From: Thermoproteota archaeon
GTDB taxonomy: Archaea > Thermoproteota > Thermoprotei_A > EX4484-217-1 > JAPDJV01
Reading direction: 5' to 3'
Length of the DNA stretch: 32,113 nt
NCBI GenBank assembly: GCA_029258925.1
Contig: JAPDJV010000022.1
Location: forward strand, 1-32,113
The notes under the pieces are model-generated. The model had not been told where the DNA came from and ran no database searches. It saw nothing but the letters and a program-made list of their open reading frames with translations. The position numbers and the translations under genes are program-made. Shown here one piece after another: positions 3,934 to 28,618 of this stretch (position 1 is the first letter of the stretch; each line of letters begins with the position of its first letter).

Positions 3934-4785
3934 TTAGATAGTCTCTTCCATCTCTATTACTTCTTCTAATGCTTGTCCCCATTCATCCTTCAATACATAT
4001 CTTTTTGTTTCAATCTTCCAATATTCCTCTCTTAACTCATTCGCTGTAGGCATAGGTGGTGATAAACCCATTCTCTTGCTAAGCCTCGTAATACCACTCT
4101 TAATACCAGTAAACCCCATTTCGTCTACAGTTACACCTCTTTTCTTTAATTCATTAATTAATTCATTTTTAGTGAGTTTCCGCCCTTGTTTCCAAGCCTC
4201 AAATACTATTTTGAGAAACATTTTTTCTTTATAGTTTAGCAATTTATAGAATCTCTTAACCTTGTCTAGATCCGGACTAGGTTGTTTAGGTTGTATAGTA
4301 GGCTTAAGAGGTTCTATCTTGCTGTCTTTTATTAACGGTCTCCAAAGGGAGAGAAGCTTCCTAACAATATCTTCAATAGGATCCTTAAGCATGTTAACTT
4401 CGAGTATTAGTTCACCACCCATCTTCTTTACATCATAAACCTTCCATACATTACCATCCGTTATTATAAAATACGGTATCTTATTTTTCCAGCTATAACT
4501 AAAGCCTAAGTCTAGAGCCTTCTTTTCATCGAGTTTTAAACCTAAGCTTTTAACTTCTAAGGCTATAAGCTTTCTACCATTGCAGTAAAGTACATAGTCA
4601 GGTCTACCACTCTCTTGCCTTTCCTCGGGTCTAACAATATCAGGATTCTCTATATCCCAGTCAAGAACTCTAAGCAGAGGGTCGATAAGAACATATCGCG
4701 TTAATGCCTCATTGGTTCTTAGAAGACTCTCGTATTTTTTAATTCGATTTCTAAGTTTATTAATAAGATCAAATAACTCCTTCAT
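3934..4785 (-). CDS. PD-(D/E)XK restriction-type endonuclease (HsdR N-terminal-like)
   Basis: A 283-residue protein whose first about 120 residues form the HsdR N-terminal / predicted type IV restriction nuclease fold. It has a helix with E26 (NEALTRYVLIDPLLRVLDWD), then GRPDYVLY with D63, then LIALEVKSLG with E77 and K79, followed by a strand and helix pattern PYFIITDGNVWKVYD. These are the metal-binding and catalytic residues of PD-(D/E)XK nucleases. A proline- and lysine-rich linker (about 158-172) leads to a C-terminal helical region (about 175-260) that resembles a winged-helix or DNA-recognition module. No methyltransferase or specificity subunit lies nearby, so it may cut modified or foreign DNA, or be an orphan. 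The ATG at 4785 fits the start of the first helix. Confidence 0.8.
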   Translation of the reverse strand: MKELFDLINKLRNRIKKYESLLRTNEALTRYVLIDPLLRVLDWDIENPDIVRPEERQESGRPDYVLYCNGRKLIALEVKSLGLKLDEKKALDLGFSYSWKNKIPYFIITDGNVWKVYDVKKMGGELILEVNMLKDPIEDIVRKLLSLWRPLIKDSKIEPLKPTIQPKQPSPDLDKVKRFYKLLNYKEKMFLKIVFEAWKQGRKLTKNELINELKKRGVTVDEMGFTGIKSGITRLSKRMGLSPPMPTANELREEYWKIETKRYVLKDEWGQALEEVIEMEETI

Positions 4786-24945: not shown

Positions 24946-25227
24946 CTAGAAATCCATCAATGCCTCTATAAACTCTCTCAAGCTTTTTACTCTCTGCGAT
25001 GCTTTGACTGGGTCAATAATCCCTGCAATATTCTTCGCCGCCTCATAGCTCTTAACATACCTACGTCCCCCGCTCCTCATCATGTATTCGTCAAGAATCT
25101 TAGCGGGATCCTCAACGCCTTCAGGATCCCCAACACACACATGTATCCCAAGCTCTCTACTCAAAGCCTCATAATCCCCCAATATCCACGCCTCTATAGC
25201 CCTCCTAACAACCAGTATACTGGACAT
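24946..25227 (-). CDS. Small helical partner of the AAA ATPase
   Basis: A 93-residue protein with no family that I recognise: MSSILVVRRAIEAWILGDYE, ALSRELGIHVCVGDPEGVED, then KILDEYMMRSGGRRYVKSYE, AAKNIAGIIDPVKASQRVKS. It starts 13 bases after the ATPase stop and must be cotranscribed. In other genomes AAA_21 ATPases of this kind are often followed by a small nuclease-like gene (DUF4276 TOPRIM). This one has no TOPRIM acids and may be a truncated or different subunit. Confidence 0.55.
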   Translation of the reverse strand: MSSILVVRRAIEAWILGDYEALSRELGIHVCVGDPEGVEDPAKILDEYMMRSGGRRYVKSYEAAKNIAGIIDPVKASQRVKSLREFIEALMDF

Positions 25228-25240
25228 ACTGTTTCACTCC

Positions 25241-26359
25241 TCACGGGTTACCTCCGAAAAAACCCGAATACCATGCCTCCCCAAGCGTGCCACCCTCCTC
25301 AAGAAGCCTCTTAACCCTCTCTAACTCCTTGTGATCCGTAAGCCTCAACACGACGGTTTCAACACCACGCCTATCAACAGCATAAACCTCGTCAACCCTA
25401 CAATGATCCAACAGGTACGGCGAGTGAGTCGTAATAATCGTCTGACAAGAAGCCTTCCTGGCAAGATCAACAATAGCCTCCAGGAGGTAGGGGTGAACAC
25501 AGTTCTCAGGCTCCTCAAACCCCACAACACTAGAACCACCATACAGTGAAACTATAAATGCAAGAAGCCTCAAGGTACCATCAGATATCCCTGCAGGTCC
25601 AACAGGCTTCCTCAAACCCTTCTCACGAACCAGCACGAACACGTCCTCACCCTCAATATGAGGCACCACCTCCTCTACGCAGGGAACCATAGACCTCAAA
25701 ACACCCTCAACATTTATGTACCTCCTCCTATCCTCAAGAAACAAGTGAAGCAAAACCCTCGCAAGATTTTCCCCATAATAACCCAGAACAGGAGGATCCC
25801 TAACCCTCGAAGCCTCTCTTATATGGGGTGGGAGGAAAGAGTAAACCCTAACAGACTTAAGCATGTCAGCCAAAACCCTTATCTCATTAATAACATCAGG
25901 AGGCAACTTGCTCAAACAACTAGGAGGAATAACACTATCGAAGTATGTAAAGTGATCCTGAACACTCTTAGTGGCCTTCTTCCCACCTTTAGCAAAATAC
26001 CAGCACTCACCGGTCTCTCCATCATATTCTAAAACCTTAGTACCATTCAATTCGACTCGCTCCAAGTACCCCTCACGGTGAAGCCTAAGAGTGTAGCAGA
26101 CTTCCTTATCATCAATTGACAAGTTAAACTCTACACACACTTCAACACTCTCATCAAAATTGTAAGCCAACTCCTTAAAACTTCTAAAACCCATAGACTC
26201 CGTGGATTTTCCATGGACAAAATCGGAGACAAACCTAAAAACCTTAACAATATTACTCTTACCACTAGCATTAGGCCCCACAAACACGTTCAACTTACCC
26301 AACTTCAAATCAACATTCTTTAAACTAAGAAAATTCCTAACCCTCAACACTCTAAACAT
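25241..26359 (-). CDS. AAA_21 / OLD-type ATPase
   Basis: A 372-residue SMC-like ATPase from the ATG at 26359 (the frame opens five codons earlier). N terminus FRVLRVRNFLSLKNVDLKLG, Walker A FVGPNASGKSNIVKV, signature region VGPAGISDGTLRLLAFIVSL, Walker B SVVGFEEPENCVHPYLLEAI and switch region TIITTHSPYLLDHCRVDEVY. These are typical of the overcoming-lysogenization-defect/RecF-like ATPases found in defence loci. No TOPRIM domain follows in the same protein; its length and ending match ATPase-only members. The small downstream gene is its likely partner. Confidence 0.88.
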   Translation of the reverse strand: MFRVLRVRNFLSLKNVDLKLGKLNVFVGPNASGKSNIVKVFRFVSDFVHGKSTESMGFRSFKELAYNFDESVEVCVEFNLSIDDKEVCYTLRLHREGYLERVELNGTKVLEYDGETGECWYFAKGGKKATKSVQDHFTYFDSVIPPSCLSKLPPDVINEIRVLADMLKSVRVYSFLPPHIREASRVRDPPVLGYYGENLARVLLHLFLEDRRRYINVEGVLRSMVPCVEEVVPHIEGEDVFVLVREKGLRKPVGPAGISDGTLRLLAFIVSLYGGSSVVGFEEPENCVHPYLLEAIVDLARKASCQTIITTHSPYLLDHCRVDEVYAVDRRGVETVVLRLTDHKELERVKRLLEEGGTLGEAWYSGFFGGNP

Positions 26360-26790
26360 GATATTCCACACCACAACACCTTAATCACAAACACTACACA
26401 ACTAAACCATACAGCTCCAACTCTATCTTATGAAATACACAATTTTAACAATTCGCTCGAACCAAAATCCCCACTCGAACACTCCTCAATAAACCTCTCC
26501 ACGCCCAAGCCACTCAAAAAATAACCAGATACCATACGCTCAGTTCAGAGCCTCCAATAAACCCTTAATAGGAGTGCAAGGGCTGAAATGTTCCTCGCCT
26601 TATCCCAGGAGCCAAGCCTAAATATCGTGCTGTGCTAGGAGGGAGGTCTGGAGACAGGTAGCATCTTGAGCAACCTAGCTTTCTCCAACAATACTAACTC
26701 CGTAAATTTTATATGGGGAATATGTGTAAAGGTTATGCACCGAGCAGTAGCCATTTAAGAATTATAGAATTTATAGAACCTCTATTACAT
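26360..26790. other. Gap with a short reading frame
   Basis: No firm gene. On the minus strand near 26450-26560 an ATG opens a 35-codon frame MVSGYFLSGLGVERFIEECS, SGDFGSSELLKLCIS, which looks protein-like but matches nothing I know. Plus-strand frames near 26590-26760 contain stops. The two ATPase operons are separated by this stretch, which should hold the promoter of the 26359 gene: AATTGTGTATTTC-type AT-rich sequence lies near 26425-26445. Confidence 0.3.
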
Positions 26791-27369
26791 CTAGGGTCTC
26801 ACTTCAATACCAAGTTCCTTAAGTGCTCTGATAAGCTCCCGAAACCAAGGATCTCCCTTAAGATAGTCCAGACTCCTTTTTCCCCTTACCCAGTACTCGA
26901 GTGCACGTGGCACTGTCAATACGTGTATTAGTAGCGTAATATGTGCGACGTATGTGACACTTATTACATAATAGAAGCTTCCCCTACGCGTAAACTTTAC
27001 TTCCGGTTTATATGAGTGGAACCTCCTAGGATTGCTTACAATGTTACTTATCTTCTCAAATATCTTCTTCGACAAGTTGTCTGGTGTGTCGTGGTCGCAG
27101 TCCACCAACGCGAATACTTCTTGCCTCCTCCTCATACTCCTCATTTTAGACACTATTATGGGCACATTCTTCATTAACCTCTCCTTACCACCCTCTACAA
27201 TTACCACCATGCTCGCTGAGATCCCCTTCTCATACATTCTTCTAATGATTTCATCCTTCTCGCCGTAGCTAGCGGAAGAAATTTTCTCAACCACTATACT
27301 CTTAAGAAAGTTATAGTCATTTTTACCTTCACATAAGAAAAGTATTGGTCTACGGCCCACGTAGATCAC
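26791..27369 (-). CDS. Stand-alone TOPRIM-domain protein (OLD/PARIS-type partner)
   Basis: A 192-residue protein with a TOPRIM fold. PILFLCEGKNDYNFLKSIVV carries the glutamate E14, and EVFALVDCDHDTPDNLSKKI carries D90-x-D92 with a further D94. This is the metal centre of OLD nucleases and related RNases. The C-terminal half (FTRRGSFYYVISVTYVAHIT to LKELGIEVRP) is unrecognised. The gene overlaps the end of the upstream ATPase gene by 20 bases, so the two form a split ATPase/TOPRIM module, similar in layout to the defence pair AriA/AriB (PARIS) and to OLD. The start is at 27369, within the ATPase gene. Confidence 0.78.
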   Translation of the reverse strand: MIYVGRRPILFLCEGKNDYNFLKSIVVEKISSASYGEKDEIIRRMYEKGISASMVVIVEGGKERLMKNVPIIVSKMRSMRRRQEVFALVDCDHDTPDNLSKKIFEKISNIVSNPRRFHSYKPEVKFTRRGSFYYVISVTYVAHITLLIHVLTVPRALEYWVRGKRSLDYLKGDPWFRELIRALKELGIEVRP

Positions 27370-28600
27370 CCTTCAACTCTTCAAGTTCCTCAATAGCTTC
27401 CTCCCCACTCAGAATCTCATAGTCTATTTCACCGTTTGGAAGCCTATACATTCTAATAACGTTAATGTTATTGAGTACATTAAGCTCTCTCGCATACTTG
27501 AAGAGGTATTCCAAAAATTCAAGACTATGAGTAGCCATAACATACTGCACATTATAAGTATTAACCACTTTAAGCAATTCCTTGCAGAACTGATTGAGGA
27601 AACCTGGATGCATATGAATCTCAGGCTCCTCCACAACATTAACATTAACACCTAGAATAGCCGGAGTAAGGAGCTCTAGAAGAGCCAGAAATCCGTCGCC
27701 GACAGACGCTAATGGCACGATCTCACGCCCATCACTATAGTTAAAGATCACCATACCATTCCTATAATCGTAGAAATAAGGTACCATACTCCTAAGCCTA
27801 TCTATTAAATCAATGAGTTTATCAACAGGTAGCTTCTCTACGATATCTCTACCTGGTCTACGTCTCAGCAATTCAGCACTAACTAAAATAGGCGATTTAT
27901 ACTTCTTAAGCTCAACGAATTCTTTATCCTCTTCTTCAAACAAGGAGGCGGACTCAGGTTTAAATACCATGTGTACTTTTATCGGGTCATTATCAATAAG
28001 AGTTATTGAGATAAACCCTAGTTCATCAATAATCTTCCGTTGCTCCTGCCTCTTAATGAGATCCTCTTGTTCCTCATATCTCTTCAAGCGATTTAACATC
28101 ATTTCCAGTTCTCTCTCATAGGCTTTTCTTTGCTCAGTGCCCTCCGGTAAAAGCTCTATCCTACGCCTTGAACGTGTTATGTCAATCTTTAGGCCTTGTA
28201 ATATTCTCTTAAACCTTTTTTCAACTACCTCACTTATAGCAGTGTCAATGGCCTCTCGTAGCAGTTGGTTCGTACCTAGCTTCTCAAAGCCTTCCCTACC
28301 TGTTGCTAAATATAGAGACAACACTTCATTATTAGTGGTATGACCCTTTACCACAGCTATGTCACTATGCACTCTCTTAAGGTAACTGTAGCCTCCTCTG
28401 CCCACCGCTAACTTTAAAACATTATTACCAAAGCAATCCTTGTAGTCATTATACGATGAGAGGAGGAGGGCTATAGCCTCTAATACGCTGGTCTTTCCAG
28501 TATTATTCCGCCCCACAATAATGTTCACTCCCTTCAATTCCAGCTTCATGCTGGCTATGGCTCTAAAGTCCTTAATTTCAACCTCCTTCAACAAATACAA
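27350..28600 (-). CDS. OLD-like AAA ATPase, partner of the TOPRIM protein
   Basis: A 416-residue ATPase. KEVEIKDFRAIASMKLELKG, Walker A NIIVGRNNTGKTSVLEAIAL, a charged coiled coil at about 130-190 (KRFKRILQGLKIDITRSRRR, EQRKAYERELEMMLNRLKRY), signature region LASVGDGFLALLELLTPAIL, Walker B NVNVVEEPEIHMHPGFLNQF and switch QYVMATHSLEFLEYLFKYAR. The start is a TTG at 28600; no ATG or GTG fits. It lacks a fused nuclease and is followed by a separate TOPRIM gene in 20-base overlap. It probably senses phage or DNA and licenses the nuclease. Confidence 0.88.
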   Translation of the reverse strand: MYLLKEVEIKDFRAIASMKLELKGVNIIVGRNNTGKTSVLEAIALLLSSYNDYKDCFGNNVLKLAVGRGGYSYLKRVHSDIAVVKGHTTNNEVLSLYLATGREGFEKLGTNQLLREAIDTAISEVVEKRFKRILQGLKIDITRSRRRIELLPEGTEQRKAYERELEMMLNRLKRYEEQEDLIKRQEQRKIIDELGFISITLIDNDPIKVHMVFKPESASLFEEEDKEFVELKKYKSPILVSAELLRRRPGRDIVEKLPVDKLIDLIDRLRSMVPYFYDYRNGMVIFNYSDGREIVPLASVGDGFLALLELLTPAILGVNVNVVEEPEIHMHPGFLNQFCKELLKVVNTYNVQYVMATHSLEFLEYLFKYARELNVLNNINVIRMYRLPNGEIDYEILSGEEAIEELEELKGDLRGP

Positions 28601-28618
28601 CTACATCACCCTACCACA

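Follow-up and report, generated by a model that had tools for sequence, protein, structure and literature searches.

Several TOPRIM defence systems have been listed, namely AbiL, MADS, retron, Gabija, P2 OLD and PARIS (PMC12409363). OLD classes 1, 2 and 5 (P2 OLD, GajA and Cran1) are single polypeptides in which an ATPase is followed by a TOPRIM domain. PARIS, which represents OLD class 4, employs an ABC ATPase (AriA) and a separate TOPRIM protein (AriB) that are sometimes fused. According to the PARIS model, AriB is sequestered by AriA and released on a trigger (PMC12409363), and the published detection rule asks for a partner with a DUF4435 domain (PF14491) (PMC9122126). OLD class 4 has been reported only from bacteria, and classes 3 and 4 were reported to be absent from archaea (PMC12796447). 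As AbiL and MADS are listed together with PARIS, a split of ATPase and TOPRIM functions is not new. PDCs are guilt-by-embedding candidates that mostly await experimental validation, and the Thermoproteota show a lower detected prevalence of defence systems, with the exception of restriction-modification, CRISPR-Cas and argonautes (PMC12988326).

The analysed window, i.e. the entire 32,113-nucleotide stretch of DNA from a heat-loving member of the Thermoproteota, contains an ATPase-TOPRIM gene pair that is best read as a divergent relative of the known split ATPase-nuclease defence systems. The following features were assigned:

28605-28610, minus strand: putative Shine-Dalgarno sequence GGTGAT of the ATPase gene, exactly 4 bases before TTG 28600
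27350-28600, minus strand: gene of an SMC/Rad50-type ABC ATPase, 416 aa with a TTG start
27350-27367, minus strand: C-terminal ATPase tail DLRGP and stop codon (TAG); relatives with a clearly separate TOPRIM gene keep a similar tail
27365-27370, minus strand: putative Shine-Dalgarno sequence GGTGAT of the TOPRIM gene, exactly 4 bases before GTG 27360
26791-27369, minus strand: gene of a stand-alone TOPRIM protein, 192 aa from GTG 27369 or 189 aa from GTG 27360

An earlier note on this DNA had described an SMC-like ATPase with a coiled coil and a TOPRIM protein in a 20-base overlap, which was borne out by the ORFs, the Pfam matches and a helical hairpin in the AF2 model. The two frames share 20 bases (27350-27369) if the first GTG is used and 11 bases from GTG 27360. 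The latter codon is probably the translation start, because GGTGAT precedes both it and TTG 28600 at the same distance and because DLR tails also occur where the TOPRIM gene is separate. Analysis of the ATPase yielded Pfam matches to AAA_15 (7.6e-21, 75.6 bits) and AAA_21 (7.3e-17, 62.8 bits), both with scores above the cut-off, and to AAA_23 (8.5e-10). A Walker A motif (GRNNTGKT), an ABC-signature-like SVGDG, a Walker B motif (VVEEPE) and an H-loop (ATHS) are present. In the AF2 model, which was obtained from a four-sequence alignment (pLDDT 79, pTM 0.77), helices 112-150 and 156-193 form the hairpin that corresponds to the coiled coil (approximately residues 112-193). The best Foldseek matches of this model in the PDB were the heads of Rad50, SMC and retron PtuA (E 1e-10 to 1e-11).

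The TOPRIM protein contains a conserved glutamate after the first strand (CEG, E14) and a DxD motif after a later core strand (DCD, D90/D92), the arrangement expected of the TOPRIM fold. All metal-binding acids are thus in place, as had been claimed, and they are invariant across the intact relatives aligned. Pfam matches remained below threshold for DUF3226 (PF11536; E 1.1e-3, 19.2 bits against a cut-off of 27 bits), RloB (E 0.07) and the OLD-like TOPRIM domain (0.18). A profile of the family was built from ten sequences, some rows of which were joined from broken frames, and was compared with a DUF3226 group whose core is above cut-off or annotated as DUF3226 and to which the archaeal G519 and G040 proteins were added on weaker evidence. 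This comparison gave a probability of 95% (P 2.3e-8, score 57.9), while 100 column shuffles reached at most 18.7 and a reversed profile 11.8; CEG-x-x-D, G-K-x-x-L and D-x-D were paired with their DUF3226 counterparts (E and DxD). Judged from these alignments, the region of residues 8-115 is homologous to the DUF3226 TOPRIM domain, and the protein is a remote relative rather than a member of DUF3226. The C-terminal half, which the earlier note had called unfamiliar, did not match the DUF3226 C-terminus (P 0.24, score 11.8, within shuffles of up to 17.3), and no relative was recognisable for the C-terminal approximately 80 residues. The structure prediction had a mixed outcome for the proposed TOPRIM fold. 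The model (pTM 0.79) is compatible with it, as strands 9-13, 31-35, 54-58 and 84-90 alternate with helices, but Foldseek searches of the PDB and BFVD retrieved no TOPRIM protein and only unspecific matches (TM about 0.34). The fold assignment therefore rests on sequence evidence. The sole match of a PDB profile search, Pyrococcus PH0156 (2p62, E 0.43), is suggestive at best.

The earlier note had described the two functions as either fused, as in OLD and GajA, or split, as in PARIS. This is incomplete, as AbiL, MADS, HEC-01, PDC-M38 and pairs of an ATPase with a DUF3226 protein are split as well. PADLOC includes HEC-01 (HEC-01A/B) and the unvalidated PDC-M38 (PDC-M38A/B) as candidates that consist of an ATPase and a TOPRIM part. 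PDC-M38A is the best PADLOC match of the window ATPase and covers it nearly at full length (residues 3-414, 1.1e-26). PDC-M38B matched the Vulcanisaeta TOPRIM protein at 1.8e-5 and the window TOPRIM protein weakly (E 2.3e-3, residues 44-110 only, with matched models of 219-293 positions). Mention of PDC-M38 or DUF3226 was not found in the literature searched. The ATPase and DUF3226 pairs (Thermoproteota genome G280 and Klebsiella ColRNAI plasmids) resemble the window in their separate, overlapping genes, and E, DxD and G-K-x-x-L align. In contrast to the DUF3226 proteins, the window TOPRIM protein scores below the cut-off, has an unrelated C-terminal half and, in the stretch from the first helix to the G-G-K strand, is longer by approximately 25 residues, among them a conserved K-D. 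The 4-kb Klebsiella ColRNAI plasmids encode the overlapping pair at L044 1365-3112 and L043 2636-3483, with 144 matching plasmid records; this split ATPase/TOPRIM pair of bacteria has no name. A further predicted split pair in archaea is found in a genome of the window's class (G040; L037, reverse strand, 354-1833), where an ATPase ending in IDLRVIDVL is followed by a 134-aa DUF3226-like TOPRIM frame.

A division into sensor and effector is probably common to PARIS and the window pair. Membership in PARIS was nevertheless rejected, as DUF4435 did not match the TOPRIM protein at E values of up to 1. No match was detected in its own genome, and none of 200 Thermoproteota genomes had a DUF4435 match over the cut-off. 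A 650-aa frame in the window's class (G018, L048), which matches DUF4435 below threshold (E 1e-4), is possibly a fused ATPase-TOPRIM protein. AbiL (AbiLi with AbiLii/RloB) shares the two-gene design, and the window ATPase matches AbiLi at 1.1e-21; on the partner side, RloB (E 0.07) and AbiLii (3e-4, over a short profile stretch) stayed below threshold. OLD classes 1, 2 and 5 have both domains, likewise with the ATPase first, but on one polypeptide, whereas the window has two genes, and a fused frame was found only in Vulcanisaeta sp. JCM 14467. With respect to HEC-01 and MADS3-4, no DUF4276 match was obtained for the TOPRIM protein. The profile checks that had been proposed were hence negative for DUF4435 and DUF4276 and left DUF3226 as a remote relative recognised by profile-profile comparison. 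The suggestion of an undescribed archaeal variant stands insofar as the pair is not PARIS and has so far been seen only in archaea; the novelty of the split itself was overstated.

Relatives of the pair were identified in Vulcanisaeta, in a Thermoprotei bin from Guaymas and in two further lineages of the Thermoproteota, with the ATPase gene always first. The pair is a real conserved family, found in these searches only in Thermoproteota. Among 229 genomes of the window's class only two are real carriers, and the one TOPRIM relative detected there is a degenerate copy (G105, 49% identity); the pair is missing from the other three genomes of the order, of which two are incomplete. The 81 genomes of the neighbouring class include eight clear carriers and a distant one. 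TOPRIM relatives in this class were found in G513, in the Vulcanisaeta-type genomes G303, G329, G531, G537 and G560, and as truncated remnants in G334 and G364, and G424 contains a distant pair of separate genes with an intergenic gap. Identical ORFs suggest that G513 and G531 correspond to named records, G513 presumably being the Guaymas bin B15_G16, and likeness to named records would place G303 and the other genomes in Vulcanisaeta. Searches of viral contigs and plasmids revealed no relative. A match in G167 was discarded as false, as it sits in an apparent ribosomal-protein operon, and those in G355 and G523 are membrane-protein-like frames. An ATPase frame lies directly upstream of every TOPRIM frame that keeps its N-terminus (G105, G513, G303, G329, G531, G537, G560 and, more distantly, G424). 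These ATPases end in DLRG(P/I), with DLRGGP in the error-prone V. distributa JCM 11216 draft and DLRVP in the fused frame. The frame breaks in JCM 11216 are probably assembly errors, because mcm is also split on the same contig. The fused frame of JCM 14467 has one G fewer than its relatives and is either a real fusion or a sequencing error, and the TOPRIM frame of G513 (L006 1471-2070 = L019 5971-6570) lies in -1 after a five-G run at the ATPase stop. Within Vulcanisaeta, pairwise dN/dS was 0.16-0.31 in the ATPase gene and 0.22-0.35 in the TOPRIM gene; both genes are therefore under purifying selection, and the TOPRIM protein evolves faster. Decayed copies have lost the N-terminus together with DxD (G334, L029 1468-1965) or the N-terminus (G364, L028 1495-1926); in G105 (L046 3952-4820) the frame is broken, D-S-N replaces DxD and the ATPase is truncated.

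The window region contains PIN-domain (VapBC) and HEPN/nucleotidyltransferase pairs and an HSDR_N protein. The latter (3934-4785, minus strand) is an orphan with the N-terminus of a type I restriction R subunit, and no evident partner, neither a methyltransferase nor a helicase, is found in the ORF list of its surroundings. A second ATPase module (24946-26374, minus strand) lies 416 bp downstream of the pair. It is of the HEC-01 or MADS3-4 kind and encodes a HEC-01A-type ATPase (PADLOC 3e-51), followed 13 bases on by a 93-aa ORF whose DUF4276 match is confined to the C-terminal half (100-191 of 192); the HEC-01B gene, which encodes the DUF4276 partner, is thus truncated in the window and lacks its N-terminal half. 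HEPN/nucleotidyltransferase-like pairs are also found near the G303 and G105 copies, and the other neighbours differ. The Vulcanisaeta copies are located at one place beside GINS/MCM genes, which suggests vertical inheritance within this genus. The assignments in G303, G105 and Vulcanisaeta were made by reading the sequences. The patchy occurrence, the remnants and the changing setting are what an accessory defence module would be expected to show.

Given the gene pair with intact motifs in both partners, the DUF3226 TOPRIM homology, the recurrent pairing, the purifying selection and the patchy decay, we consider it fairly probable that the locus encodes a two-subunit effector module, i.e. an OLD-type enzyme divided onto two genes and forming a divergent Thermoproteota subfamily, in which the ATPase controls a TOPRIM nuclease against viruses. 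The ATPase would dimerise via its ABC heads and bind the TOPRIM protein, perhaps through the conserved DLRGP tail, and would either hold it inactive or position it. Either a trigger from the virus or an altered ATP state would then free or activate the TOPRIM protein, which with E14, D90, D92 and two metal ions may cut nucleic acid, either DNA or tRNA, and thereby halt the replication of the virus or shut down the infected cell. By analogy with PARIS, the ATPase likely senses infection and controls the nuclease, and an antiviral role of the pair is plausible. The second ATPase/DUF4276 module nearby also speaks for this reading. It is weakened by the absence of relatives from the viral contigs and plasmids searched, by the single location of the Vulcanisaeta copies, by the Foldseek result for the TOPRIM model and by the weak PDC-M38B match of the window protein.

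The close junction of the genes would also fit a single OLD protein that is produced by frameshifting or readthrough at the DLRGP stop, with the free ATPase as an alternative product. In close relatives the stop comes right after DLRG(P/I) and is immediately followed by the TOPRIM frame, which lies in +1 in the window and Vulcanisaeta, in -1 in G513 and in the same frame after TAA in G105. In addition, JCM 14467 has the in-frame fusion (624 aa, L020 4618-6492), and the G513 TOPRIM frame is without ATG, GTG or TTG before the catalytic glutamate. Both of these frames hinge on one G in a G run, where assemblies err. Furthermore, the DLR tail also ends ATPases that have a separate TOPRIM gene (G424, with its intergenic gap, and G040; DPR in G519), and usable starts exist in the window and Vulcanisaeta frames, the one in the window with its own Shine-Dalgarno sequence. 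Programmed frameshifting was for these reasons rejected as the main reading and is regarded as very improbable. That the window copy is a non-functional remnant, like those in G105, G334 and G364 and next to a truncated HEC-01B gene, is more improbable still, as neither ORF is shortened, every motif is present and the start signals are good.

A role of two separately translated proteins outside defence was also weighed. Cran1 of Saccharolobus, an archaeal class 5 OLD ATPase-nickase, is needed for the cell cycle, and an antiviral effect was not detected (PMC12796447). This precedent, the GINS and MCM genes adjoining the Vulcanisaeta copies and an ATPase fold closest to Rad50/SMC heads would fit a pair that helps to process or repair DNA or takes part in the cell cycle. 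However, Cran1 is apparently essential and is conserved throughout the Sulfolobales, whereas the pair is very patchy, has repeatedly decayed in close relatives and varies in its setting between lineages, which renders such a housekeeping function unlikely. Alternatively, the TOPRIM protein could be a toxin that is constantly restrained by the ATPase and serves element maintenance rather than antiviral defence. The tight overlap in a region rich in VapBC and HEPN/nucleotidyltransferase pairs and the effector-type decay in relatives are in line with this proposal, but deletion of ariA or ariB in PARIS is non-toxic (PMC9122126), and the G105 copy, with a truncated ATPase and a TOPRIM protein that has also lost DxD, reveals no clear order of loss. 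We hold this explanation to be decidedly unlikely.

The two-subunit defence module preferred here is missed by standard profiles on the effector side and is therefore a candidate for part of the defence gap of Thermoproteota. It would show a PARIS-like ATPase/TOPRIM split in archaea, which were reported to lack OLD classes 3 and 4 (PMC12796447). A bolder proposal is that the pair represents an archaeal class of its own among split OLD-like immune systems, with a new C-terminal target-recognition domain on the TOPRIM effector and a PARIS-like mode of action in hyperthermophiles, from which PARIS itself is not known; this is possible yet rather doubtful. A minor observation concerns the Vulcanisaeta ATPases (L007 222-1496, L008, L020), in which the H-loop histidine is replaced by glutamine (ATQS instead of ATHS) and ATP hydrolysis may be altered.
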